A DNA stretch of 64,000 bases from Antedon mediterranea (Eukaryota; Echinodermata; Crinoidea; Comatulida; Antedonidae): NCBI RefSeq assembly GCF_964355755.1, contig NC_092674.1:1431001-1495000 (forward strand). Direction: 5' to 3'. The notes beneath the pieces were generated by a model. The model saw only the letters and a program-made list of their open reading frames with translations. It ran no database searches and was not told the DNA's origin. Shown piece by piece: positions 3,801 to 59,300 of the stretch. Every line of letters starts with the position of its first letter. Within the stretch, counting starts at the first letter, position 1. Both the position numbers and the translations under genes were made by a program.

Positions 3801-6649
3801 TATTGTTTCTCTAAAGCATTGTTCACACTACACTTGAAAATGGTCAATTTAACCCAAATTTACCCAAAGCCTACTACTTTTTTTATTTTATGAGCAGTGA
3901 GATTTAAAATTAACACTGAATAATAAGCATTATTCTTGGTTAATTTAACCCAGGCCAGCATTCAGATTGTACTTTTGTTCAATTATGCTGACTCCTGTTT
4001 TACTGTTTGTTTTGTTCATTTCACAGCTCTGTCAACCAGGATCATAGATAGTATATTTTCACATGGATCAGTACTAAGGTAAAAGAAATTATTTTCCTAA
4101 CTTAATTGCATTTCATCCCTAAAATTTAAGACAGTGGAACCGTAATACCTAGCCATAACATTGGCCTGGGTTCGAGCTTCACTTGCTCCATGGTTCTGGT
4201 GATGAGTCCTCTTGGATAAGGACTATAAACCGTAGGTCCAGTGTACACATCTAGCTCATGTGCATTTTGAATAACCTAGTACATCTTTCAAGACAAGTTT
4301 AAATTTAAATTTACTTTTATTTCTTTTAATCGTTTCAGTTCAAATTCTGTCCAGGAAGGTTTGATGAGTTACACAGAATTCGTCTGGTTCTTGTTATCTG
4401 AAGAAGATAAAAAGACACCAATGAGGTATATTTTGTATGTCCTTTTTATTGTAATTGATGGTCTCACAATCGCAAATGACCCCAATCTTGTCAATTCTAT
4501 GTATGGTGTCACATAAGGGTAAAGTTTAAACACCCTGCTGTTAATTGACTGTATATATGATTGTATGTGGCCAAGTTGTAGTGCAGAGGTGCTGCATGAT
4601 TGTATGTGGCCAAGTTGTAGTGCAGAGGTGCTGCATGATTGTATGTGGCCATGTTGTAGTGCAGAGGTGCTGCATGATTGTATGTGGCCAAGTTGTAGTG
4701 CAGAGGTGCTGCATGATTGTATGTGGCCATGTTGTAGTGCAGAGGTGCTGCATGATTGTATGTGGCCAAGTTGTAGTGCAGAGGTGCTGCATGATTGTAT
4801 GTGGCCATGTTGTAGTGCAGAGGTGCTGCATGATTGTACAGTAGTGGCATGGTAGCTTTACTTGCCTCACCATCCCAAGCACTTGAAATAAAATAATGGG
4901 TTGTTATATCATTTCTTGGCAGCATTGAATACTGGTTCCGTTGCATGGATCTTGATGGCGATGGATATTTATCAATGTACGAGTTACAGTATTTTTATGA
5001 AGAGCAACTTGCCAAAATGGAAGGACTCGGAATTGAAACTCTTCCTTTTGAGGATTGCTTATGCCAAGTAAGTTAGAAGAGAGCTGTTCAATCCCAATTG
5101 GATTCAAGATGGAGTATTACAAAAAGTGTGATGTGTCCAAATATGGTAGTGGTATGCCCAATTATAGTAGTGGTATGTCCAAATATGGTAGTGATATGCC
5201 ATCATCATGTCCATATATGGCCACATCACATTTTTGTTGTTACATAAAGTTTGATAGTGTAGACAGATCTATAGAACAGTTGTGTCATAAAACAGTACAA
5301 CCTTACTAATGCCTTAGTATTCATTGAATACTACTCCCCATTCAACCCATAACCATTCATTTTTTAATAATGCTCTGGCGTTAATCTGATAATAATATTA
5401 TTTTCTTGCAGATGTTAGATCTTGTAAAGCCTCTAGAGGGCGACAGAATAAGTCTACGTGATCTGAAAGCTTGTAAATTAGCTTATATATTCTTTGATAC
5501 ATTCTTCAATCTGGAGAAGTATCTAGACCATGAACAACGAGATCCTTTTGCAAACATCAGGGTAACAACATTTTTTATTTCATTTTGCACACAAAAAATC
5601 AGCAATTTTTCTTTTTCTATGACAAAAAAAAAAGGGAGACACTGTATATATAGTATAATTAATTTATTTTATCTACAAACTACTTGTGTTATTACAAAAA
5701 CTTTTTAAATGACAGAATGAAGAGACAGATTTAGCTGAGCCATCAGATTGGGAAAAGTATGCTGCAGAGGAATATGAATTGTTGGTAGCTGAGGAGGCAG
5801 GCCAAGAGCAGTCTGCTTTAGATGCTACTGATGTGTAAGTCAACCAACATATTCAACATTTTACCTACATATACAATATATAGGCCTATAAAATTATTGT
5901 AGAAGTAGATATATATATCAATCATGGAAAGAATTCTGCCCTTCATGATATACTGTATTAAAATTCCAAATACAGAAGAATAAAGACACAGTTAATTTAA
6001 GCTAGAACTTTTTTTGACATATTTTATTTTTATCTTGTATTTTTAATCTGTTATAATACTGCACGTTTTTAAATTGTTGCAATATTGTTGTTTTAATCTA
6101 CCAAGCAAAGTGAATTTCCATTTTTATGGACAAATAAAATTTCTTGAATCTTGAATCTTGAATCTTATACAGGATAAAATATATCAGGTATAGATGTAGC
6201 TCCTGTGTTACATTATGGTCCTGTTTTGAGAAATCCCTCTATCTTTACAACTACACTAGTCTAGGTTCTAGACTGTAATTAGTAAAAAGATGAATATGTT
6301 GCCAATTATGGCGTTTCATACGTATAATAATTGAGCTCACTTAAGACAAAAATCAAAATAACTACAGGTCTTTGTGAGATAGGTATCTCACTCATAGACT
6401 ATCACACCACTGTTGGTTTGTGTAACTTGAGACAAGTCTAGTACAACTACACATACAGTATACATTTATGAATTATTTTTATATGCTATTTTGTTCAAAT
6501 TCAATAGAGAATACCAAGACGATTTTGAGCTTGATGATGAGGATGATGAGGCTATCATGTCAATTGATGAAGCAATGAAGAAATTAGCAGCCTCTGAGCC
6601 CCCAGAAAGCAGAACATGGAACCACAATAACAACACTACAATCAGTTGA
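882..6649 (+). CDS. PPP2R3A: PP2A regulatory subunit B'' (PR72/PR130 type), 3' exons only
   Basis: C-terminal part of a calcium-binding B'' subunit, which directs the PP2A phosphatase to its substrates. Eight exons: 882-968, 1885-2041, 4027-4078, 4339-4425, 4923-5067, 5412-5561, 5716-5834 and 6508-6649 (TGA 6647-6649). All have GT-AG borders and matching phases. The product begins [20 protein letters not shown], then shows [20 protein letters not shown], an EF-hand loop [12 protein letters not shown] in exon 5, and [20 protein letters not shown] in exon 6, all close to the vertebrate PPP2R3A/B family. The tail is acidic ([13 protein letters not shown]), as usual for the family. The 5' exons lie before base 1. 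AATAAA signals at 6859-6868 probably end the transcript. PPP2R3A rather than PPP2R3B is chosen partly because MSL2 and PCCB follow. Confidence 0.88.
1763..1786. repeat. T9-G15 homopolymer junction
   Basis: Nine T are followed directly by fifteen G in an intron of the PPP2R3A-like gene. The G run could form a quadruplex on the RNA-like strand. Confidence 0.9.
2060..2156. mobile_element. Family-2 MITE fragment
   Basis: Contains TGACCAATCACA, CTGTGATTGGTTAACTC and CCTTGCGTTGCGTCCTAGTG with an AAGCTTA-like right end. The left terminus is missing. Confidence 0.65.
2933..3015. repeat. 32-bp tandem repeat, about 2.6 units
   Basis: ACCCCTAGGGGGACAACTAT plus ACCCTGTGGGGT repeats at 2933, 2965 and 2997. 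It contains a short palindrome CCCCTAGGGG in each unit. Confidence 0.9.
3149..3262. repeat. ATC/ATT trinucleotide microsatellite
   Basis: Imperfect runs of ATC with interspersed ATT and ACATC units in an intron. Confidence 0.9.
4137..4295 (+). mobile_element. Probable tRNA-derived SINE fragment
   Basis: GGGTTCGAGC at 4168-4177 resembles a Pol III B box. It is followed by GGATAAGGACTATAAACCGT and GGTCCAGTGTACACA, a body type seen in invertebrate SINEs. The A box is not clear. Confidence 0.45.
4558..4838. repeat. 39-bp minisatellite, 7 units, with 78-bp alternation
   Basis: Units TGATTGTATGTGGCCAAGTT continuing GTAGTGCAGAGGTGCTGCA. One base alternates (CCAAG or CCATG) in the order A A T A T A T, so the last six units form three 78-bp pairs. 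The open frames across it are by-products of the repeat. It lies in the intron just before the EF-hand exon. Confidence 0.95.
5112..5272. mobile_element. Family-1 MITE copy, with duplicated inner units
   Basis: AAATATGGTAGTG/TATG-type units occur three times, then ATCATGTCCATATATGG, and a right end GTTTGATAGTGTAGACAG. The left terminus is lost. Confidence 0.75.
6113..6174 (+). mobile_element. Possible 3' end of a non-LTR retrotransposon
   Basis: GGACAAATAAAATTTCTTGA is followed by repeats of ATCTTGA, the kind of short tandem tail found at LINE 3' ends. No coding part is seen. Confidence 0.4.
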
Positions 6650-6984: not shown

Positions 6985-7137
6985 AGCTCTGTCAACACTA
7001 TATATATGACAAAAAAATGTGATGTTCCCAAATATGGACATGATGTCATATCACTACCATATTTGGGTATATCACTACCATATTTGGGTACAATCACACT
7101 TTTTTTATCAAACTAGTTTGATTGTGTAGACAGAGCT
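6985..7137. mobile_element. Family-1 MITE copy, complete
   Basis: AGCTCTGTCAACACTATATA at the left, TGTGTAGACAGAGCT at the right, flanked by TAA and TTA. Inner CCATATTTGGGTA unit is duplicated. Confidence 0.9.
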
Positions 7138-13777: not shown

Positions 13778-16700
13778 ATGGCTTCCATCATGTGGAGAGT
13801 TTCTCGGAGAGCTCTTACCCAAACAAATTTATTAAATAAAAATTTCAATAATTTGTCGGCACGATCATGTAGTCATCAGCTTTTGCAAGATGTAAAATCA
13901 AAGATTGAAAGAAAGAGACAACTTGCAAATGAAGGAGGAGGCCAACACCGAATTGATTCACAGCACAAAAAGGTAGGCCTCCCTCGCCTAGAGAGGCCTG
14001 GCCCTAGCCTAGGTAGGCTAGCTAGGCCAGGGAGGGTCAGGGAATTATGTTTCAATTCATCGGAGGACGCACACACGGAGAGGACGTTGACGTTGTGGTG
14101 GTAAAGTAGATAGTACCTGTACCTCCTAGTAGTACTAGTAGTGGACTAGTTTAGATGTAGCGTAGTAGTAGTATAGAAAGGTGCATGAAATTGTAGAGGA
14201 TGATGGGTGGCAGCTACAGACAATTGATGAATTAATTTATTGCATTTAGGATACTATTTTATTTATTTATAGGCCTAAATAATTATAATTATAGATAATA
14301 CTTAAAAGGCTTAGAGGGCCTAGATTAAAATAAATTATTATTAAATATTATTAATATTATTATTTTTATTATTAATCTTGGTAAAAAAAGATTTTTATTT
14401 TGAATAAATATTTGCCTCTTATTAGCCTAGGCTAGTTTACTTTTACCTTTAACTTTTTCAAAAATGCACGCAGTTTGGAAATGCATTATATTATAATGCT
14501 GTCATTATTATTAATATTATTTATTTTAAAGTGTTTAAATTTCACAGGGTAAGCTGACTGCAAGAGAACGAGTGAATTTGCTGATGGACCCTGGCAGCTT
14601 TGTTGAGTTTGATACATTTGTTGAACATCGGTGCACCGACTTTGGAATGGCTGAACCAAAAAACACAGCAAGTATCCAACAACTTAATAATATTAATCAA
14701 AGAAATAATAATCATTGCATATTATTTCTTTTACGAAACAATTTACGAAACACAACAAAATTAAATCTTTCAAAATAAATTTATTTTCTAGGCCATATTT
14801 TGTTCTCATATTACAACAAGGAAGAAACTTGAATGGATTTTGAACTAAACTATTTTGAACTAAACAAGTTTGTTGTTTATTTTTCAGTTTCCAGGCGATG
14901 GAGTTGTGACTGGGCATGGACATATCAATGGAAGAATTGCATTTGTGTTTAGCCAGGTAAGAAGAGCAGCTCAATCCAAGAGTACACCTTTTTCTTTCCC
15001 ATCCATCCATAAGACAAACATTTCCATCAAATAACTCATATTAATAAACAAAACAAAACAAAAGTAAAAGTCATTTTTGAGGTGAGAAAAAAGTTCATGC
15101 TTCAGACATGATATAAAATCAGGAGGGGTCACTATTAAGAATTTGATTAAGAATTTGAATAACATTGTAGAACTGTAACAAAAACATAACTGTTCCTTGT
15201 TCATAAAAGGATTTTACCGTTCATGGTGGTAGCCTGTCTAGTGCTAATGCCCAGAAGATTTGTAAAATAATGGACCAAGCAATGATGGTAGGGGCACCTG
15301 TTATTGGTCTGAATGATTCAGGGGGTGCAAGAATACAAGAGGGTGTAGAATCACTAGCTGGCTATGCTGATATATTCCAGGTAAGTTAACAGAGAGAGAC
15401 TCAATAAGTATTCTACATGGTAGCTGTATGGTAGCAAAAACATGTTTATTGTTTGGTGTGTTTTTCCCTTAGAGAAATGTGCTGAGTTCTGGAGTTATAC
15501 CACAGATTTCACTTATAATGGGCCCATGTGCAGGTAATATATTTATAGGAAAAATACAGTAATTTCTACAAACCAACACCCCATGATATAATATCTTCCT
15601 GTTGTCCTCAAATTTAGATCTTCTCTAAAAGTGGCAATACATTCTTCATAAGATATTATTTTTACTTTCATTTCAGGAGGTGCAGTGTACTCACCAGCAA
15701 TAACAGATTTTGTTTTTATGGTTCAGGTAAAATAAACATATTATTATAATAGTAAATTTTATATTTCTTTTATCACATAGTTTATAAGTTAATGTCTTTT
15801 TATTTTCTCTAGGATACCTCATACTTAGTTTATAAGTTAATCTCTTTTTATTTTCTCTAGGATACCTCATACTTAGTTTATAAGTTAATGTCTTTTTATT
15901 TTCTCTAGGATACCTCATACTTAGTTTATAAGTTAATGTCTTTTTATTTTCTCTAGGATACCTCATACTTAGTTTATAAGTTAATGTCTTTTTATTTTCT
16001 CTAGGATACCTCATACTTAGTTTATAAGTTAATCTCTTTTTATTTTCTCTAGGATACCTCATACTTAGTTTATAAGTTAATGTCTTTTTATTTTCTCTAG
16101 GATACCTCATACTTAGTTTATAAGTTAATGTCTTTTTATTTTCTCTAGGATACCTCATACTTAGTTTATAAGTTAATGTCTTTTTATTTTCTCTAGGATA
16201 CCTCATACTTAGTTTATAAGTTAATGTCTTTTTATTTTCTCTAGGATACCTCATACTTAGTTTATAAGTTAATGTTTTTTTATTTTCTCTAGGATACCTC
16301 ATACTTAGTTTATAAGGGTCTGTTTCTGCTGAAAAAATCAAAATAATCGATTTTTTCCAGTCACCGCAAACCACAAAAATAATCGCGTTGCAATTGAAAA
16401 TTGCTACGACTTTAATCGGTTATTCAGGTAATCGGTTTTTAAAATCACGTCATCATTCCCCCACAGCGCAGTTCAAGTTATGAAAGGCCGATGAGAGTTG
16501 GTTTGTTTACATCCTATCGCTGCCTAAAACTCTCACATGTAGGATTAAAAATTACTCTTACCTAAAGCTATATTATTTGTAAAATAAACATCTAGGCCTA
16601 CTACCGTACCACATACAACAGAATAATGATGTTATATTAATAAGGACACGTCGGCGAAAAAAGTACGTTTCGCCGTTCGTTGGTTCTACCTTCGGCCTAT

Positions 16701-19700
16701 ATAGGCTATATATTTCTACCGAAACAAGTCAACAGACAACAGGCCTAAACAATGTAAAACATCGTTAGCCTGGACTGGTGGTATGTAACGGGTGTACTTG
16801 TAACACAGAATCCTGGAGTCTCTCGGTATAATTCACCCCACAAAATAATAAAAATCAAATGTTTAACATTAATTGATTGTTATTCGGTCTACATCGCGAT
16901 CGTGGTTTTGCTGATCGTCGTCGATATCGCGCAAATAAACAGCATGCTTTGTGAAGTGAAGTTTGTCATACTCTAAAGGTCAAAGTGAGGTCAATAATCG
17001 CTATTTGTGTTGCAGCTCAAAACTGCTCCGCAATAATCGGTTAAAACAAGAAATAATCGATTAAAACACGCAATGGATTGAGTGTTTTTAATCGGTTATT
17101 TTTAATCGGTTATTTTATTTTGCGCCGTTTCTGCTGCCCAAAAATAATCAATTAAAAAAATAAACGGTTAATAATCGATTATTTCTGCTCAGCAGAAACA
17201 GGCCCTAAGTTAATGTTTTTTTATTTTCTCTAGGATACCTCATACTTAGTTTATAAGTTAATCTCTTTTTATTTTCTCTAGGATACCTCATACTTATTCA
17301 TAACAGGACCAGATGTCGTAAAGGTTTGTTTGCCGTATTTATAATGTTGACAGTTTTAATTAGATAAAATGTAGTTATTTTTACATTATAAATAAGTGTA
17401 TATGGTATAATTCCAATAACAGTATGCATTACAGTAATTAATCTTATTAATTATTATATATTTCAAAGGCTGTGAACAATGAAGATGTTACATTTGAAGA
17501 TTTAGGTGGAGCCACAGCGCATACAAAAAAATCTGGTAATTTTTCACTTTCACTGAATTACAACAATGAATAATTGTTACAATATATTTTTAAGATTGAA
17601 TAACCGTTATATTAATAAAAATTATTAAAATTGCAATAATGAGATGAATAAATGATTATACAATTCTATTGGTTGTTCCTACAGGCTGTGCACATGGTGC
17701 TTTTTCTAATGACATAGAGGCATTACAACATTTAAGAGACTTCTTTAATTATTTACCTCTGAGTAACAAAGATGAAGCACCTATACAGCAGTCTGATGAT
17801 TCTCCGTAAGTAATCATGCTGGATACAAGTTCTTCTTTTAATTTAGATTAATTCGTTCAGATAATTAGTTTCATACATGAAAGAATTTTATGTTGACAGA
17901 TTCTTTACAAGTTAATATTTCAATTTTCTTACTATTTTTTTAAAGAGATCGCTTAGTACCAGTATTAAACACAGTAGTACCGTTGGAGTCAAACAAGCCA
18001 TATGATATAATGGATGTTGTCCTTGCAGTAAGTACAATTCAAAAGTTGTGCCTTTAAAATGACTATAAACATTATTTAATATTGTTTTTCTTCTAAATTA
18101 TCAAGTGTCTTTATAATGAGAATATTTTCGGAAAAACTGAATTTTACGTAGTTTTGCGACATTTTTTTCTAGACTGTAGATGATCGCAAGTTCTTCCAGA
18201 TTATGCCAGATTATGCAAAAAATATTGTAGTTGGCTTTGCAAGAATGAACGGAAGAACAGTTGGCATTGTGGGTAATCAGCCTAAAGTTGCATCAGGTGA
18301 TTATTGGCTCAAATAATTACCATTTGTGAAGTCAGAATTGACATTTGATTTGAAATTTTGCCTCAAAGTATTGTGTTGTTAGCTACCTGTAGTAGAGTAT
18401 CTATAGCGTAAACATCCTCTATATTACATATTGAAATAATGGTAGTTCCTCTGTTGACCATTTTAGTGACTAGTTGTAGTTTCTTGATTTTCTAGGTTGT
18501 CTTGATATAAGTGCATCTGTGAAGGGTGCAAGATTTGTTCGTTTTTGTGATTCATTCAATATCCCCATCATCACATTTGTAGATGTACCTGGATTTTTAC
18601 CAGGTAAGTTTTAATATTGAGTGAAATTTAATTTATTGATTATACTATACAGTTCCCAAATATTTTTTACTAAATGTTGCTTTATTACACATTTAAGCAA
18701 ATGATATTATAGTTTAAATTACTAAAATATGTATTAAGTATGTACTTTTTTTCTGTTCCATAAGGTACAAGCCAGGAACATGGCGGGATAATCCGTCATG
18801 GAGCCAAGTTACTCTATGCCTATGCCGAGGCCACTGTACCCAAGCTGACTGTGATTACCAGGAAAGCATATGGAGGAGCCTATGACGTCATGAGCTCAAA
18901 ACATTTACGAGGGGACATAAATTATGCATGGCCTACTGCAGAGGTAGCAGTCATGGGGGCTCAGGCAAGTCTTGCACTTAAAGGGATACACGAATGTGGC
19001 CAAAAAAAAACGTTCTTGACACTACTAATGAGGCTAAAGAAAAGATGAACAAATTTACATTTAGAATATTGTCATTTGCAGGGTGCTGTTAAAATTATCT
19101 TTAGAGGAGATGATAATGTTGCAGAGGCTGAACAAGAATATATAGAGAAGTTTGCAAACCCTTTCCCAGCAGCTTCTAAAGGTAAGGTAGTGCTGGTGCA
19201 GTTGAGTCTATTGGATGGAAAACAAACTATAGTGATAGAGGGGGTGTTCATATTGTTGGGTGGTACATTTTATTGTATAGGATTGTATTGATAGACAGGG
19301 TTGTATTGTAAATAAGAGGTAATACTGACAAATATGATCTCAGTTTAGAATATAGTATAGCTAATATATATTAGATAGAAAAAAGGCTATAATGGTAGAG
19401 GTACATTGATATGAAGAGGCGCTATTTATAGAAATAACCTCTGCTGATAAAATATATTGGATAAGCTATTTTATAAACAGAGCTACGTTGAATTGTAACA
19501 AAAATATGTTCTATTTTTTTACTGTTATGGTCTCGGTTCTCTGTATGCAATCACTGATATTGGGGGGTTACGATTTCTTAAGTTTTCTTTAAATTTTGAT
19601 ATTACCTTCCAACACAATTGCCATCTATAATTCTTGTTTTATTTTTTTCAGGTTTTGTTGATGACATCATTGAACCAAGTACGACCAGGAAACGACTTTG

Positions 19701-19773
19701 CCGAGACTTGGATTTACTTTCTACAAAACAACTTAGCAATCCATGGAAAAAACATGGAAATATACCACTCTGA
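13778..19773 (+). CDS. PCCB: Propionyl-CoA carboxylase beta chain, mitochondrial
   Basis: Carboxyltransferase subunit that converts propionyl-CoA to D-methylmalonyl-CoA in the mitochondrial matrix with the biotinylated alpha chain. Fifteen exons: 13778-13972, 14548-14667, 14888-14956, 15210-15380, 15473-15533, 15677-15726, 17282-17323, 17469-17535, 17685-17805, 17946-18027, 18173-18296, 18496-18603, 18765-18964, 19082-19181, 19652-19773. They give 543 aa (human about 539). The start [17 protein letters not shown] looks like a mitochondrial presequence. Family marks include [86 protein letters not shown] and the C-terminal [10 protein letters not shown]. Introns 2 and 13 start with GCAAGT rather than GT. 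Intron 6 is swollen by a 48-bp splice-site repeat and an inserted element. An upstream in-frame TTG at 13754 was not used as start. Confidence 0.95.
14668..14887 (+). other. PCCB intron 2, inferred GC-AG type
   Basis: Exon 2 must end in phase 0 to join exon 3, which reads TTT CCA GGC (FPGDGVVTG). Only a donor at GCAAGT (14668) does this and restores the family length (KN-T-FPGD against human KNKFPGD). The nearest GT (14672) leaves an extra base and fits only if a second acceptor, 14894, were used, which loses FPG. Confidence 0.75.
15778..17296 (+). repeat. 48-bp tandem array duplicating the exon 7 splice acceptor
   Basis: Each 48-bp unit has TTAGTTTATAAGTTAATG, then TCTTTTTATTTTCTCTAG, then GATACCTCATACTTA. 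The pyrimidine tract plus AG, and the 15 bases after it, are the real 3' splice site and the start of PCCB exon 7. AG ends fall at 15812, 15860, 15908, 15956, 16004, 16052, 16100, 16148, 16196, 16244, 16292, 17233 and the true 17281. The jump between 16292 and 17233 is a nested insertion. Units vary at one or two bases (GTC, CTC, GTT). Read in the exon frame, a unit ends in TAG. Confidence 0.95.
16316..17205. mobile_element. 890-bp inverted-repeat DNA transposon with TAA target duplication
   Basis: The left end is GGGTCTGTTTCTGCTG; the right end is its near-perfect reverse complement (CAGCAGAAACAGGCCC). Both sides are flanked by TAA (16313-16315 and 17206-17208). The spacing between repeat acceptors around it is 941 bp, which equals 48 + 890 + 3, so the insertion and a 3-bp duplication are exact. 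No open frame of note, so non-autonomous. The inside is rich in AATCGGTTA/AATAATCGATT words. A TWA target duplication suggests the PIF/Harbinger superfamily. Confidence 0.85.
18965..19081 (+). other. PCCB intron 13, GC-AG type
   Basis: The exon ends GTC ATG GGG GCT CAG and the intron begins GCAAGT, a perfect match to the known GC-AG donor consensus CAG|GCAAGT. Joined to 19082 it reads [13 protein letters not shown], matching the family (AVMGAKGAVEIIF). No GT donor nearby keeps the frame. Confidence 0.85.
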
Positions 19774-34048: not shown

Positions 34049-34172
34049 ATCTCTGCCTACATTTTATGTGACAAAAAAATGTGATGTGCCCATATATGGA
34101 CATGATGATGTCATATCAGTACCATATTTAAGCATATCAATACCATATTTATATTTTGTAAAAAGCAGAGCT
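34049..34172. mobile_element. Family-1 MITE copy, right end decayed
   Basis: ATCTCTGCCTACATTTTATG at left after TAA, body GATGTGCCCATATATGGACA, right end reduced to GCAGAGCT. Confidence 0.75.
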
Positions 34173-45902: not shown

Positions 45903-46050
45903 GAGACACTATCAAACGTTATGCGACAACAAAATGTGATGTGCCCATGTATGGACATGATGATGTCATATCACTACCATATTTAAGCATATCACTACTA
46001 TATTTGGGCACATCACACTTTCTTACCAAACTAGTTTGATAGTGTAGACA
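45903..46050. mobile_element. Family-1 MITE copy
   Basis: GAGACACTATCAAACGTTAT at left (terminal bases lost), body with GGACATGATGATGTCATATC, right GTTTGATAGTGTAGACAG. Confidence 0.85.
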
Positions 46051-47346: not shown

Positions 47347-50300
47347 TTATTCAAAAATTCCCGACCAAGGCCCTTGTGCGGTCTCATCCTCAATATGCGG
47401 ATGCAAGTTAAAGTTCATCTCATGTGGTAGCGCTGCCCTCTGTGGGTAAAAACTGTGTTGTAACGAGTACGACAACAGGTTGTCTACGGATGATGTGTAA
47501 ATGTCTGCGAAGCGTGAAAGACGACGGGAGAAATACGTTGGGTTGTGGTACGTGCGAAAGATACTACCAAACTGGCGGTTAAACAATGTTTTTGTTATAA
47601 CTCTAGAAAAAGAATTGAAAAAAAAAACATTAAGAATATTGACATTGAACATTATTACGAAAATTAATGCAAACATTTATTTGAAATTTATTGAAATTTA
47701 ATTCTCTTTTAATTATGTTTATTAAAATGCTTAGGAAAAAAGGCCGATAGACATACCTAAGTTGGTGACGCTCTCTCAGCCATTCTTGTAAAACTGCTTG
47801 ACACTCTGAATTCTCATAAACCTATAATAGAAAAAAACAAATATTCCGCTCAACTGTTTTTTTAAATGTATTGTATATAATTTATTTTTGTTATGCATTA
47901 AAGGGGGTGTTGGCAGTCATTTTAATATACCCACAATTTCTATTAAATATGATCAGAAAGTAGAGATCTAGTTTATTGAATTAAAGGCAGTTAAAGGAAG
48001 ATAGGAAAGATTAAGATTAAATTGGTAACAAAAGAATAATCCTAAGATTAAGAAGGATAAAAGAAAAAAGAGATTACAAAACACTCTAATCTCCTGTGAC
48101 TTGGTTGAGGTCACTAGGCTCAGACCCAATTTAGTGAAAGGTTTACGATTAAAAAAAAAAAATAAAGAAAAAAATAAATAAATAAAATGTGTTTAGTTAT
48201 TGTCTTTTTTTAATGTTGTTACTCCACCAGTCAGCATTTTGATTTTTGTTTGCAATTCCAGCTAAAGTATATTTTGTGCCAACTTTTTATCCTTTTACCA
48301 ATATTAAGTGAATCGCCGTCTAGATCCGGGACTAGAATTCAATGTCTGCAAAGACTGAATTAGTGATTTAGGTCACTGAACAGCTGATTCAATGATAGGA
48401 TTGAAACAACTGAAAAGGATAAGATTATAATTTGACAAAAAAAAACCAATTTGTATTTGTCGCACATTTTGCCTTTCACAGTTAGTGTATAATTTATCAT
48501 GGATTACACTCTTCTTTGAGGTTTGTATTGTACAACTGTGTCTGTCAAAGAACAATACCATTGTGCAAATACAATAGCAGTTTTCCTTTCACACTACAGT
48601 ACAATGCTCCCATTTTAATGTTTTTACACTGACCATGTAGTAACAATAAGACAATGACTTTCTTCTGACCACAAAATAATAAAATCTATTCATCTATATA
48701 GTTACGTTACTATTATATTCTGATTATATTTACCAATACTACTCCTGGTAAACAACTTTTACAGCAGTTTTTACTATTATATGTATTTACACTGGCAGTG
48801 TTGTTGTACACATCCCCAAAAAAAGAAGATGTTTTTATTTTTGTGATAATTTTGTATATTTTTTCTATTAGTCTTTATTCTATTATATATACATATATAA
48901 ATCCAAAGGCAAATTACTGAAAAAATGACAATACTGTGGGATACATATACAGTACACATTTAATATTTTAAAACCAGGTTGTATAAGCTATTATTTCATT
49001 AACATTTTCAATTGATGTGCTAAAATTAAAAAGTTTGATATAGGAAAAGTAATACAGGATTTGAAAGAGTTCTAAAACGACCAACAATGGAAATAACAAG
49101 TCTATTAATAACTGTTAACTACTGCGATAACAATGAACTATGGGTAATATCAGTATGTTATTTGTTTATTATCTAATGTGATATCATTTGACCCCTAAAC
49201 CACAGGTTAAGCCATTGTCCTTGTCTTCTCAATATTTGTATGTGTTTTTAGGTCTTTCATTTGATATGGATATTTCAATAGATCACTAGACCTCATCAAA
49301 TATTATTAATCTTAAAATAGTCAGTATGATTGCTTGCTATCAAGACTTCAAAATACACAGAAAATGCTATTCTGGCACAATCCAAATTTAGTACAAATTT
49401 GTTTAAATTGTATATTTGACTTTCCTTTATGTAAAGCACATTGACTCTTAACCAACCAACCAAAACTCCTCTCCCCTAGCCAAAATTGAACCGATAATTA
49501 ACCGATAAAAATTCTCTGATTTGAATGAGATAATTATCGGTTAATTTTTCTTGAGCAGAATCAGTCAAACCCCATTTCCACAAACAGGAAGTTGTATCGG
49601 TTAATTATTGTTCTGCGGAAATACGGCCTATGTCACTCTCCAGAGTAGCGTTGCATTGTGGTTTACAAACTTTGACAGATCCAGGATCCAGGGAGGGGTG
49701 GGGGCTGACTTATGTATTACCCTATAAATATTTAGAGGGCTGGATGGTCCCTTGTCCGTCAGCTTACCTGATTTTTTTCAATGAGGGCCTGCAGCGTTAA
49801 CAACCAAACAACAGCTTGCTTGAAAGGTACAGAGTTGCTTGTTGTTATTTCAGACTGAAAAATATAAAACATTGTGATACAAGATTACATCATAGAAAGT
49901 ATTATAATGTGATGTTCCCATATATGGACATAATCATGTTATCACTACCATATTTGGGCATGTCACTACCATATTTGGGCACATCACACCTTTTTTGTCA
50001 AACTAGATTGATAGTGTAGACAGAGTTTTTATATGAGGCAATTGTAGTTTAGTTGTTATATACTGTACACATTGCAATACATTGGTTCAGCCACTGCCAA
50101 TTAGAATAAAGCAGGACTTATACACATTGCAATACATTGGTTCAGCCACTGCCAATTAGAATAAAGCAGGACTTATACACATTGCAATACATTGGTTCAG
50201 CCACTGCCAATTAGAATAAAGCAGGACTTATACACATTGCAATACATTGGTTCAGCCACTGCCAATTAGAATAAAGCAGGACTTATACACATTGCAATAC

Positions 50301-53300
50301 ATTGGTTCAGCCACTGCCAATTAGAATAAAGCAGGACTTATACACATTGCAATACATTGGTTCAGCCACTGCCAATTAGAATAAAGCAGGACTTATACAC
50401 ATTGCAATACATTGGTTCAGCCACTGCCAATTAGAATAAAGCAGGACTTATACACATTGCAATACATTGGTTCAGCCACTGCCAATTAGAATAAAGCAGG
50501 ACTTATACACATTGCAATACATTGGTTCAGCCACTGCCAATTTGAATAAAGCAGGACTTATACACATTGCAATACATTGGTTCAGCCACTGCCAATTAGA
50601 ATAAAGCAGGACTTATACACATTGCAATACATTGGTTCAGCCACTGCCAATTAGAATAAAGCAGGACTTATACACATTGCAATACATTGGTTCAGCCACT
50701 GCCAATTAGAATAAAGCAGGACTTATACACATTGCAATACATTGGTTCAGCCACTGCCAATTAGAATAAAGCAGGACTTATACACATTGCAATACATTGG
50801 TTCAGCCACTGCCAATTAGAATAAAGCAGGACTTATACACATTGCAATACATTGGTTCAGCCACTGCCAATTAGAATAAAGCAGGACTTATACACATTGC
50901 AATACATTGGTTCAGCCACTGCCAATTAGAATAAAGCAGGACTTGTACACATTGCAATACATTGGTTCAGCCACTGCCAATTAGAATAAAGCAGGACTTA
51001 TACACATTGCAATACATTGGTTCAGCCACTGCCAATTAGAATAAAGCAGGACTTATACACATTGCAATACATTGGTTCAGCCACTGCCAATTAGAATAAA
51101 GCAGGACTTATACACATTGCAATACATTGGTTCAGCCACTGCCAATTAGAATAAAGCAGGACTTATACACATTGCAATACATTGGTTCAGCCACTGCCAA
51201 TTAGAATAAAGCAGGACTTATACACATTGCAATACATTGGTTCAGCCACTGCCAATTAGAATAAAGCAGGACTTATACACATTGCAATACATTGGTTCAG
51301 CCACTGCCAATTAGAATAAAGCAGGACTTATACACATTGCAATACATTGGTTCAGCCACTGCCAATTAGAATAAAGCAGGACTTATACACATTGCAATAC
51401 ATTGGTTCAGCCACTGCCAATTAGAATAAAGCAGGACTTATACACATTGCAATACATTGGTTCAGCCACTGCCAATTAGAATAAAGCAGGACTTATACAC
51501 ATTGCAATACATTGGTTCAGCCACTGCCAATTTGAATAAAGCAGGACTTGTACACATTGCAATACATTGGTTCAGCCACTGCCAATTTGAATAAAGCAGG
51601 ACTTATACACATTGCAATACATTGGTTCAGCCACTGCCAATTTGAATAAAGCAGGACTTATACACATTGCAATACATTGGTTCAGCCACTGCCAATTTGA
51701 ATAAAGCAGGACTTATTGTATGATAAACAATATTAAGTTGGATCATTGTAGTTGACATTATTAATGAGCATAGTATCTTGACATTGTTTGACAATAAAGC
51801 CTTTATAGTCATATTGAATACTTAACCTCATATTAACAGGATGTATTTCAACTAAAAATCACAAAACATAAACTCAACATTCTTCTATATATCCAGGTCA
51901 AAATAGATATAATAATATAAAGAAAAATATAATAAGATAATAAAGCATTCATAACTGCCAAATGGACAATTTAATTAGATCTTCCCTTAACTAGGTTCTA
52001 GCCCGTAATTAGTAAAGATTGTGAGTTACAACTCTGGCACTAAGTCAGGATTGAACCCCGGACTTTGTGATTGGAAGGCAAGCACGTTAACCATCAAGCT
52101 ACAACTTCACTACATTCTGAGTATTTTGTAGATCCATTGACAGTTGTTGGGTAGGCATCTTTCATTAACCATGAAAAATATTCTAATTAACAAAGCCATA
52201 AATTATTATATTCATAACTGATGCAACCAGCAGGAATAATAATAGCATAATATATGTCATTTACATGTACGTAATACTTGTAATAAATTGTCAAATTGTT
52301 TCTACAGGTAGCAAATAGAGTGAGTGTGTTTACACAGCTGAAACCATGTAGGTGGTAAACAGCAACTCCGGAAAAAGTAACAATTGAATATTATACCAGT
52401 AAAAGTTATATAAATATTGCTAATTATTGTTGTAGGAGGCTGTTGACTACTGTATAGAAATATTTTGAATGGTTTTCCATACGTGGAGTGTATGTACTGT
52501 ACAGAGAATTCTGAAATAAGATGGTGGAAGGGGGTGCCATAAAATTCAAAAGGGGTAGGGCCTTGGGGTGGTGGAAGCGGGTCTGATAAAGCTAAAAAAG
52601 GGGTCGGGCCTTGGGCTGGTGGAAGCAGGTGCGATAAAGCTCAAAAGGGGGTAGGGCCTTGGGGTGGTGGAAGCAGGTGAAATAAAGCTAAAAAAGGGTA
52701 GGGTCTTGGGGTGGCGGAAGCGGGTGTGATAAAGCTCAAAAAGGGTAGGGCCTTGGGGTGGTGGAAGCAGGTGAAATAAAGCTCAAAAAGGGTAGGGCCT
52801 TGGGGTGGTGAAAGCAGGTGAAATAAAGCTCAAAAAGGGTAGGGCCTTGGGGTGGTGGAAGCAAGTGAAATAAAGCTGAAAAGGGGAGCAGGGCCTTGGG
52901 GTGGTGAAAGCAGGTGAAATAAAGCTCAAAAGGGGGTAGGGCCTTGGGGTGGTGGAAGCAGGTGAAATAAAGCTCAAAAGGGGAGCAGGGCCTTGGGGTG
53001 GTGGAAGCAGGTGAAATAAAGCTCAAAAGGGGAGCAGGTCCTTGGGGTGGTGAAAGCAGGTGAAATAAAGCTCAAAAGGGGGTAGGGCCTTGGGGTGGTG
53101 GAAGCAGGTGAAATAAAGCTCAAAAGGGGGTAGGGCCTTGGGGTGGTGAAAGCAGGTGAAATAAAGCTCAAAAAGGGTAGGGCCTTGAAGTGGTGGAAGC
53201 AGGTGAAATAAAGCTCAAAAAGGGTAGGGCCTTGGGGTGGTGGAAGCAGGTGAAATAAAGCTGAAAAGGGGAGCAGGGCCTTGGGGTGGTGGAAGCAGGT

Positions 53301-56300
53301 GAAATAAAGCTGAAAAGGGGAGCAGGGTCTTGGGGTGGTGGAAGCAGGTGAAATAAAGCTCAAAAGGGGGTAGGGCCTTGGGGTGGTGGAAGCAGGTGAA
53401 ATAAAGCTCAAAAGGGGAGCAGGGCCTTGGGGTGGTGGAAGCAGGTGAAATAAAGCTCAAAAGGGGAGCAGGTCCTTGGGGTGGTGAAAGCAAGTGAAAT
53501 AAAGCTCAAAAGGGGAGCAGGTCCTTGGGGTGGTGGAAGCAGGTGAAATAAAGCTCAAAAGGGGAGCAGGTCCTTGGGGTGGTGGAAGCAGGTGAAATAA
53601 AGCTCAAAAGGGGAGCAGGTCCTTGGGGTGGTGGAAGCAGGTGAAATAAAGCTCAAAAGGGGAGCAGGTCCTTGGGGTGGTGAAAGCAGGTGAAATAAAG
53701 CTCAAAAGGGGGTAGGGTCTTGGGGTGGTGGAAACGGGTGTGATAAAGCTCAAAAAGGGTAGGGCCTTGGGGTGGTGAAAGCAGGTGAAATAAAGCTCAA
53801 AAAGGGTAGGGCCTTGAAGTGGTGGAAGCAGGTGAAATAAAGCTCAAAAAGGGTAGGGCCTTGGGGTGGTGGAAGCAGGTGAAATAAAGCTGAAAAGGGG
53901 AGCAGGGCCTTGGGGTGGTGGAAGCAGGTGAAATAAAGCTCAAAAGGGGAGCAGGGCCTTGGGGTGGTGGAAGCAGGTGAAATAAAGCACAAAAGGGGAG
54001 CAGGTCCTTGGGGTGGTGGAAGCAGGTGAAATAAAGCTGAAAAGAGGAGCAGGGCCTTGGGGTGGTGGAAGCAGGTGAAATAAAGCTCAAAAGGGGAGCA
54101 GGTCCTTGGGGTGGTGGAAGCAGGTGAAATAAAGCTCAAAAGGGGAGCAGGGCCTTGGGGTGGTGGAAGCAGGTGAAATAAAGCTGAAAAGGGGAGCAGG
54201 GCCTTGGGGTGGTGGAAGCAGGTGAAATAAAGCACAAAAGGGGAGCAGGTCCTTGGGGTGGTGGAAGCAGGTGAAATAAAGCTCAAAAGGGGAGCAGGTC
54301 CTTGGGGTGGTGGAAGCAGGTGAAATAAAGCTCAAAAGAGGAGCAGGGCCTTGGGGTGGTGGAAGCAGGTGAAATAAAGCTCAAAAGGGGAGCAGGTCCT
54401 TGGGGTGGTGGAAACAGGTGACTTTTACGACCTTTAGATTTTTGTAATCCCCTTTCATCGATTGTAGATTTTTTTTCTTTTTGTAGTAATAATTTCTAAT
54501 AACAATTTAATGCATAACTACTACTGAAAACTTTCAGATCCATGCCGTAGGCTGACTGAGTATTATGAAAATCAAAGATAGTGTAAATGTACTCCCCGTA
54601 GAGGGGCTATTGAATTCGCACCTCTAATTCTGGGATGATAGCTCCTGTCCTCCATCCATGTTTAAGTGACGGGTCAGCAAGGTCACTGTACACATGATCT
54701 CCAAAATATAACACACCAGATTCGTTCCAATGAATTGAGTTTACAAATTTCTCAATGTTACCCTGCAAGAAAAGGGTGATTTTTTACTCATTCATAAGGA
54801 TACAAATTAGGAATCAAAGTAGAACTACCATTTATAAAGCTCTGTCTACACTATCAAACTTTATGTGCCCATATGTCATATCACTACCATTTATTTGGGC
54901 ACATCACATTCTTTTCCACATAAAGTTAGTGTAGAGAGAGCTTTAGTTTTTGGTTTTCGATGTCCCCGACGACAGAGGATGTCAATAAAGTTTGCCTAAA
55001 GTAAAAATAAATTTAGGTAAAAACTGTAAATATGTTTGTAAGTTTATCATATGCATTGTAAACATCTTTTCAACTGTTGTGTAATCATATTCATACCTCT
55101 AAATAAATCTTGCCCTTTTCTAGGTTGTTGACCTTTGACCAAGCTGGTATACCAAGCTTGGTTGATATACATCTAAAAGGTCTAAAAATACAAAACAAAC
55201 TTTTTAAAAATACCATAAACAATTTCACTGTAAATGGTATAAAAACTTGACCTGAAGAGGGCAGCATACCTTATATTCATACATAACTACAGATTTTCAA
55301 AAGTGATTGAAATAGCTTATAATATTGTCATTATTGTGGATGAGTGAAATGTATTACATTATTGCTTTGGCTTTAGAAAGATTCTGTTGGATAAATTCTA
55401 TTTCCCAAAAAATATGTTAAAAAATATGTTTTTCTTAACATTTCACATTCAAAATATTGGTTGAGATTTGGTAAACTTCTGAAACTTGGTGTATACCTTG
55501 ATGTGTCATTGAAGAAGTATGGTTTTCTTGCCTGGGTTACAACAACATCAAACATTTCTCGCCAGTTATGGCCGCATAAATATTGCATTCCTCGATCCCT
55601 AAAACATTAAATAATATTGAGTATGCATCTGTTAAATTATGGTCTATATCGTTGGACGATATTTTTGGGAAGATGTAAAGAAACTGACAACTAGTTAAAT
55701 ATGAAAGACTATTTTTGATAAACAAATATTTGTCCAGATAATGTACAACAATTTATAATTTATACTACTGTACTTTCTCTTTAGATAGAGATAAGAGAAA
55801 AATATCTGTCTGTTTATAATAAATTCATACATTTTGAAATAATTTTCCATCCTATAGATTCTAATATCTTTATTTTTCTTAATAGTGCCATCTATGCTTT
55901 AAGAAAAACTAGATATTTCGTTTTTCCAAGTTTGGAGGTGTGTTTTAATTCATTGCACTCTGTTTAAAAGCCTTTCGTTACAACTGCCAGTGGTGGATCC
56001 AGATTTTGATATCCTATCTTTTGCATTACAATTTGCGAAATTTAGGGGGGCCAGGGTCTGACTGCATTATAGCAAAGTTTGTTTACATACACAAAATGGA
56101 AGTGACTATTTGTAATGAGAAACAGCTTCTTGCCAGCTGTGTGTAGTCTGCTCAACAGCTTTACAACTTGATGTTCATTCTTTAGGTATTTAGCTGCAAA
56201 TAAAGGGAAGCAAATATGATAAAATTAAAAGTGTCCAAGAAATAATACTGGTCAAGTTGAGCCAAACTAAAGGGCATATTTGACTAGTCACTCGCAAACA

Positions 56301-59300
56301 ACTTGCACTGAGCTACTCAAACTGCTCACATATATAAACAGTGAGGATTATCTGCTCAAAACAGTCTATCTACACTATCAAACTAGTGATATGCCCAAAT
56401 ATGGTAGTGATATGACATCATTATGTCCATATAATAAGGGCACATCACATTTTTTTGTCAAATAAAGTTTGACAATCATACAAACACAGTACTACAGTCT
56501 TAACACAATTCAGACTATGGCCTTGTATCATTTCATTTCGCGATCTCTTATCGAGGGGTAAGATCAAATTGCTATAAATGTTTATTAGTATCACACTACC
56601 TGGATTTTCCATGACTTCATTATGCATTTCTCCAGCAAAATGAACTTGTTTGACTGAATTCTATAATGAAAATAAAAATATATTTTTTACACACTTAATC
56701 ATGTGTATTAAAACGTTGACTAACATAAAAAAGACAAGAACTACAGACTTAATACTTTAATACTATTTAATAAGTTAATCTTATCTTGTTAAGTTCACAT
56801 ACTCACATGAATATCATCAAACAAGTTGGCAGGACAGTAATCAATGTTGTGATTTTCTAAATACTGAAGGAAGAAATGAAAACAACAATATTAATTGTTT
56901 TTTAAATACCGTATATACTCGGGTATAATCCCACTCTGGGCCTAATCCCACCCCCTACTTTCAGCTGATTTTACAGGCATATCCCTGGGTGGGTATAGTC
57001 CCAGTATTGACTTTTGGTCTGGATGTAGGCCTCTCTCTAGCCAGTTCAGATGCTTACCAATCATTTTTTTCCTGAACCAGGTTTATCCCGGCTATAGTTC
57101 CACCACCAAAAGTCGGCCCAATTTTGTGTTCTAGTGGGGTGGGATATACAATATATGATTTATAATCAGAAAGCTGGATGATGATGACACTTGCTGTTGA
57201 TGAGAAAGTGATGATGCATTGATAATTAATTTAATTAATTAATTTTAAAGTACATTACTTCTATAACGTTTGCGAGTAAAGCCATTTCAGGAATTGAAAA
57301 TATGTCCATAAGCTGTCGCATATTTTGTCCCTGTAAAGAAAAAATAAATTAAATTTCACTGAATCTGAAAGCTTGCTTGCCTTTTCCTTCATGTTTATTT
57401 GTTTAAGGTCAAAGGTTATACTTAATTATGCAAAAGATTTGATTACACACCTTGCCATGAAATGAGCTCATGTACGTTACTGGGATGTGAACACTGTCAT
57501 ATTCCTCAATGACCTCCTCATTGCTTAACTGTCGGTGACCCCTGAAGTAAAATGGTTTAAAAAATCTAAATGAATCTACTATACATATCAATTGAACACA
57601 CTATCCAAGACCTGCATTAGTGAGTTTATCTAAAAAGACTTCTACGCAATCAGTGGCACAACGGCTAGACCTGCATTAGTGAGTTTATCTAACAAGACTT
57701 CTACGCAATCAAGTGGCACAACGGTTAGACCTGCATTAGTGAGTTTATCTAACAAGACTTCTACGCAATCAGTGGCACAACGGCTAGACCTGCATTAGTG
57801 AGTTTATCTAACAAGACTTCTACGCAATCAGTGGCACAACGGCTAGACCTGCATTAGTGAGTTTATCTAACAAGACTTCTACGCAATCAGTGGCACAACG
57901 GCTAGACCTGCATTAGTGAGTTTATCTAACAAGACTTCTACGCAATCAGTGGCACAACGGCTAGACCTGCATTAGTGAGTTTATTCAACAAGACTTCTAC
58001 GCAATCAGTGGCACAACGGCTAGACCTGCATTAGTGAGTTTATCTAACAAGACTTCTACGCAATCAGTGGCACAACGGCTATGAGCACTCACTAGCTAAA
58101 CCCAAGGGCCCGGCCTGAGCAGTGTCCAGAAGATAAAACAGGAATTAAAATATACATCAAAAAAGGCTAAAAACGCCCAAGGCCTCCAGCGTTGGAGGGC
58201 TACTTAGGGTTCCTAAAAAAGGGGGCCTCAGGCATCTGTGTTAGACCATCGATTGCAATTCTGTTTTATTTCTTCCCCCCCAAGTCCCAAAAGGTCCACT
58301 ATTTTCTCTGTTGGTATTTTTTCTTGTCTTGTTTAACTAAAGACAATATTATATATATACAAAATTTACATTATCAATTGTATACAAACAAAAATATGTT
58401 AATATAAAATGAAAAAATACGGTAATTAAATTTACGGAATCTGAAATGACTCAAACTTGATGTAAAACATGCGCAGTCGATCATGTGACGACAAGCAATA
58501 GCTTAGCGCTTCATGTACGCGGTACGCGGTAAAGTGTTTGCTGGAAATAAATACAGACGTACAACAGGCGGTAAAGATAGGTATAGGTAGCTGTTGCCAA
58601 GCTCATATCTTATAACACTACGCGCCCAGTAAATCATCCATGGACGCCATTCGGGCGGACAGGTTATTTAAATTGTGATTTAAATGTAAATGGTTTAAAT
58701 TTTGCGGTCCGCCTCGAAGTATCTGTGGTTAACCATCTTGATGAATGATTCATGGAAAAGGGAAGAAATTATGTACACAAAGTAAAATAAAAGTTTCTTT
58801 GGGATCTGGACACTTTCCGATTAATTCTGTGTGTTTACATTGATACGTTTGGTTAGACAACTTCGTTCTTTAACCGAAACATTGTGGATATTGCCTTGAC
58901 AACGGCGGAATGGCGTCCATGGATTACAAAGGTCTCACCCAGTTACCTATCTTGCGCCGCGTAGCGGCGCTATACAATCTTTGGTGTCTGGAAATACAGC
59001 GAATACGGATACAGCGCCTAAACATGGGAAGGAAGGCCAACTCAGACAGCGTCGTACGACGCTGTCTGAGTTGTTTGTCCTTTAAACATCATGAAAGCGT
59101 TAAGTTCTGGTGTCCATCGTTCAACTAGCCCAAGCCACAACAAAGAGTCTTAAATCAGTCTTTAGAACGTCAAATAACGCAAATTTTGCCGGGGCCTTCG
59201 GCCCCTGACCGGGGGCCCTTGGCGGCCCCCTGGCCCCCCAGCCATTGTTGCTCGCTTTGCTCGCACCCCCCCCATTATAAATGCTGCATACGGGCCTGAT

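Follow-up and report, generated by a model that had tools for sequence, protein, structure and literature searches.

The window analysed here, a stretch of 64,000 nucleotides (C5, 1431001-1495000) with a G+C content of 34%, carries a gene for PCCB on its forward strand. The coding part (13778-19773) consists of 15 exons that join into a stop-free open reading frame of 543 amino acids. The predicted protein was aligned by phmmer with human PCCB (7ybu_C; E = 1.5e-273, residues 29-543), without gaps at exon 7, where 14 of 14 residues are identical to those of the human protein. A genome search recovered this as the sole PCCB locus in the 354-Mb assembly, nearly all bases of which are contained in its 11 largest contigs (22-41 Mb); weaker relatives were matched on C2 and C6. 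With one full-length copy and strong conservation, the gene is presumably functional in spite of the structure described below. Two among its 14 introns, intron 2 (14668-14887, ACA/GCAAGT) and intron 13 (18965-19081, CAG/GCAAGT), are of the GC-AG type. Mitochondrial COX1, which was sought for a reading of the genetic code, was not found in the assembly.

Between exon 6 (15677-15726) and exon 8 (17469-17535), the boundary of intron 6 and exon 7 (17282-17323, 42 nt) is present as a 48-bp unit in 13 head-to-tail copies, all on the forward strand. Each unit combines 33 nt from the 3' end of intron 6 (TAGTTTATAAGTTAATGTCTTTTTATTTTCTCTAG) with the first 15 nt of exon 7 (GATACCTCATACT), the exon part continuing into TTA. 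The intron part contains a branch-point-like TTAAT, a pyrimidine tract, and the AG. TTAAT occurs in every unit and, in the four acceptors for which the distance was checked, precedes the AG by about 21 nt. Units 1-11 are complete (15778-16305), and their decoy acceptors have AGs that end at 15812, 15860, 15908, 15956, 16004, 16052, 16100, 16148, 16196, 16244, and 16292, in steps of 48 nt. Unit 12 (16306-17246) is split by a transposon into 16306-16315 and 17209-17246, with the AG of decoy 12 ending at 17233. Unit 13 (17247-17296) holds the authentic 3' splice site, its AG at 17280-17281 being followed by the first 15 nt of exon 7. TRF reported a period of 48, 11.2 copies, and 98% matches for 15778-16316, and two further copies at 17206-17303.

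The array is confirmed as real. An earlier, sequence-only reading had described it as 12 decoy acceptors in front of a genuine PCCB exon, built from a 48-bp unit that contains the pyrimidine tract, the AG, and 15 exon bases, and this description held up. The same reading had taken the array to be continuous, overlooking the 890-bp transposon at 16316-17205, and had placed it at 15778-17323; we locate its end at about 17296, inside exon 7. The acceptors had also been called near-identical. This is correct from TATTTTCTCTAG to GATACCTCATACTTA, where all 13 are the same, and for the AG, which is intact in 13 of 13 units, but the pyrimidine tract comes in three variants: AATGTC in eight decoys, AATCTC in decoys 2 and 6 and the true acceptor, and AATGTT in decoys 11 and 12. 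Typing each unit by its two variable bases gave the order a b a a a b a a a a c / c b, where the slash marks the transposon.

The insertion in unit 12 ends in 17-bp imperfect terminal inverted repeats (GGGYCTGTTTCTGCTGA) and is flanked by a TAA target duplication (16313-16315 and 17206-17208). The genome search returned about 40 relatives at 93-100% identity, nearly all of them full length; among copies whose two ends could be read, most had 3-bp target duplications. Terminal inverted repeats, a target duplication of constant length, and many near-identical copies are the marks of a MITE-type element, and judged by its sequence this is a recently active, MITE-like, non-autonomous DNA transposon. 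As the nearest other copy is 99.55% identical, the insertion into the array is probably recent. With the element in place, 11 of the 12 decoys lie at least 1031 nt from the exon 7 donor, and decoy 12, 48 nt upstream, is left as the sole close competitor of the true site; it would define a 90-nt exon in place of the 42-nt one. The element further contains a donor-like site on the forward strand, CAG/GTAATC (16425-16433, GT at 16428), which is common across the transposon family. From the exon 6 donor to that of exon 7 it is the strongest such site, with a matrix score of 9.3 versus 6.0 for the exon 7 donor. Decoy 11 and this donor would bound a stop-bearing candidate poison exon of 135 nt (16293-16427).

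When exon 6 was joined computationally to the 13 acceptors in turn, the outcome agreed with the earlier claim that only the last one gives a full protein. AG 17281 alone yielded the 543-residue product, and every one of the 12 AGs before it led to a stop codon within 18 codons. It had also been proposed that every decoy is read into a TAG at the end of the unit. For 11 of the 12 decoys the stop was indeed the TAG ending the next acceptor, with a product of 237 amino acids; for decoy 11 (AG 16292) it instead fell 17 codons in, within the transposon, with a product of 239 amino acids. An in-frame TAG after 15 codons is bound to arise when the exon is in phase 0, the acceptor reads TAG, and the unit length is a multiple of three. 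As the stop follows automatically from these properties, it provides no evidence of tuning. Skipping of exon 7 would keep the frame and remove 14 conserved residues, for a predicted product of 529 amino acids.

Acceptors were scored with a matrix built from the 13 other acceptors of the gene. On this small and crude matrix the decoys scored 8.9-12.5, the true site 11.7, and the other PCCB acceptors 9.3-17.9, and the best acceptors of the array were decoys 11 and 12 (12.5). Since decoy and true acceptors score about equally, the last one cannot be told apart by local strength. The exon 7 donor (AAG/GTTTGT, 17324-17332, forward strand) is the weakest of the gene, scoring 3.0 on a matrix built without it, as compared with 6.7-13.7 for the others. 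A search for an RNA fold masking decoy 12 or the true site found none, the fold being no better than shuffles (z = 0.18). Known RNA families were not found in the 64-kb window. The unit was also considered as a 33-nt mini-intron plus a 15-nt exon, which would add in-frame DTSYL repeats. This was rejected, as the GTs within the unit score -7.0 and -0.2 versus 3.0 for the weakest real donor.

A search of the 354-Mb assembly did not find the 48-bp unit elsewhere, and we therefore conclude that it arose in place. We propose that a 48-bp segment across the intron 6/exon 7 boundary was duplicated tandemly, that the array was expanded by ordinary minisatellite turnover, and that the young DNA transposon inserted into unit 12 afterwards. 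The duplicated copies would now be situated within intron 6. In the one haplotype analysed, the repeat of a four-unit block (a b a a a b a a), together with the 98% identity of the copies, suggests recent turnover by multi-unit duplication. Use of the last acceptor gives a GT-AG intron 6 of 1555 bp (15727-17281); the other 13 introns measure 92-575 bp. With copy 1 as acceptor the intron would measure 86 nt, close to the gene's shortest at 92 nt, such that an ancestor with a short intron 6 and a single acceptor, later stretched, is plausible.

Minisatellites are dense in this genome, with 35 arrays of period at least 15 and at least three copies in 222 kb sampled, so that one lying across a splice boundary needs no special cause. 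Among the 18 arrays with a period of at least 25 in the same 222 kb, an acceptor of decoy strength was present only in the PCCB array; none of the 17 others with their acceptor-like units reached the decoys' score. Compared with about 7% of random segments, 1 of 18 indicates that acceptor-bearing arrays are not enriched. The PCCB array has an acceptor because a real boundary was copied.

Duplications of intron/exon boundaries, termed mirages, have been reported in amphioxus genes, namely the globins BflGb6 and BflGb9, Adh3, troponin C (TnC), and PGBD5 (PMC3087553, PMC3902484), and so far have been described in cephalochordates. The BflGb6 unit consists of the 3' end of intron B12.2 and the 5' part of exon 2, and its units evolve in concert (PMC3087553, PMC3902484). 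For the globin mirages, RT-PCR suggested regular splicing (PMC3087553), and those of Adh and TnC were reported without aberrant mRNA (PMC3902484). The PCCB array likewise is a minisatellite-like tandem duplication with an acceptor and an exon start in each unit; its copies lie head to tail, span a boundary of a coding gene, and keep the splice signal. It differs in unit length (48 bp versus 150-160 bp in BflGb6; Adh3 units are 10-72 bp), in copy number (13 versus 3 or 6 in BflGb6), in the 98% likeness of its copies, and in being split by a transposon. By structure, it is an extreme case of this already described kind, and it alone reveals no new mechanism.

Two other systems bear on the array. 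PMC2630376, citing Romano et al. 2002, describes human CBS 844ins68 as a duplication of the junction between intron 7 and exon 8, in which splicing strongly favours the distal, exon-proximal acceptor and a normal mRNA results; the site is called a donor in the text of that paper and a 3' splice site in its reference list. CBS 844ins68, a polymorphism in humans for which RNA data exist, has one extra acceptor in contrast to the twelve of PCCB. Intron gain by tandem genomic duplication, as in potato RdRp (PMC4974935; model in PMC3087553), also involves copies that surround splice signals inside a gene. The PCCB array, however, forms no new intron, and its unit is without a usable donor.

We consider it likely that the array is a mirage-type minisatellite in which the last acceptor is chosen, and that it is neutral or slightly harmful and not a regulator. 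Most PCCB transcripts would use the last acceptor, through exon-wide pairing with the exon 7 donor or through donor proximity, because it alone adjoins the rest of exon 7, with a donor at a distance of 42 nt. Of the possible rules for acceptor choice, exon-wide pairing would be the most economical, and the published parallels point the same way. Some transcripts may be spliced to decoys, encounter an early stop, and undergo decay. The array itself is most likely neutral or mildly costly, and probably without function. Against this explanation, the decoys equal the true acceptor in score or come close to it, and decoy 1 is transcribed first with an intron length near that typical of the gene, so that a first-come rule predicts decoy use. 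The weakness of the exon 7 donor also weakens the argument from exon pairing. Together, the weak donor and the first-come rule make some leakage into stop-bearing products plausible, and the sequenced haplotype may be a rare hypomorphic allele.

In its full form, that alternative holds that a sizeable share of transcripts is spliced to decoys, above all 1, 11, and 12, or includes the poison exon formed by decoy 11 and the transposon donor, reducing PCCB output; the allele would persist owing to a recessive or mild effect. The top scores of decoys 11 and 12, the mere 48 nt between decoy 12 and the true site (90-nt versus 42-nt exon), and a transposon donor stronger than that of exon 7 and situated 135 nt after decoy 11 are all consistent with it, as is the probable recency of the insertion. 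Yet amphioxus mirages were reported without aberrant mRNA (PMC3902484), CBS 844ins68 prefers the exon-proximal acceptor in the account given in PMC2630376, and the PCCB reading frame is intact. On balance, we regard a hypomorphic allele as unlikely. Less probable by a clear step is that array and transposon act as a copy-number-dependent attenuator of PCCB, in which the choice of decoys, including the poison exon from decoy 11 to the transposon donor, would set the mRNA level and vary between individuals with minisatellite length.

The sequence-only reading had raised the idea of a tuned drain on PCCB mRNA through nonsense-mediated decay, for which selection would have kept the array to set the mRNA level. 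Stops from 12 of 12 decoys and the intactness of every AG fit such a role. The stop phase, however, is automatic from unit length and exon phase, units that are 98% alike are too similar to reveal purifying selection, and the array is private to one gene in a genome where minisatellites abound; we give tuning almost no credence. An assembly artefact is just as improbable: short-unit arrays can be mis-sized in assemblies, but this one spans only about 1.5 kb overall, its interrupting transposon has a proper 3-bp target duplication, and the assembly's 11 large contigs contain nearly all bases.

For the mirage-type minisatellite that we prefer, the interest lies in the arrangement of its splice sites. 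The 13 acceptors are locally identical between -12 and +15 and differ mainly in their order and in their distances to the upstream and downstream donors. The array thus represents an unusually clean natural test of whether a 3' splice site is chosen for being the first made, for lying nearest the upstream donor, or for lying nearest the exon's own donor. A G+C content of 34% in the window and 11 large contigs do not fit Branchiostoma, which is thus probably not the host. Searches with tunicate, spliced-leader, GFP, and RAG1 markers gave no hits, but carry no weight for placing the host, as three of them, the family searches, lacked a functioning control. If the host is not a lancelet, mirages may extend beyond the group in which they have been described.

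Other repeats in the window and elsewhere in the assembly were also recorded. A minisatellite at 57608-58081 (59-bp unit, eight copies) was considered as a second mirage and rejected, as it does not span a boundary and stops about 65 bp short of the next exon's acceptor. It sits in an intron of a minus-strand gene like those with a 5'-nucleotidase domain, named by eye from its exons. Two long minisatellites lie less than 1 kb apart at 50066-51716 (55 bp, 30 copies, 99%) and 52522-54421 (49 bp, 39 copies, 93%). A 21-bp motif close to ATATCACTACCATATTTGGGC forms short tandem runs at 5137-5200, 7048-7090, 34112-34151, 45967-46016, and 49941-49987, and recurs on other chromosomes (L030, L032, L033, and L041), as if spread by a dispersed element. 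Large satellites with units of 215, 88, and 19 bp take up the greater part of 8-kb pieces picked arbitrarily from C4, C9, and C10 (L031 1-8000; L038 1-5391; L039 1-5170).
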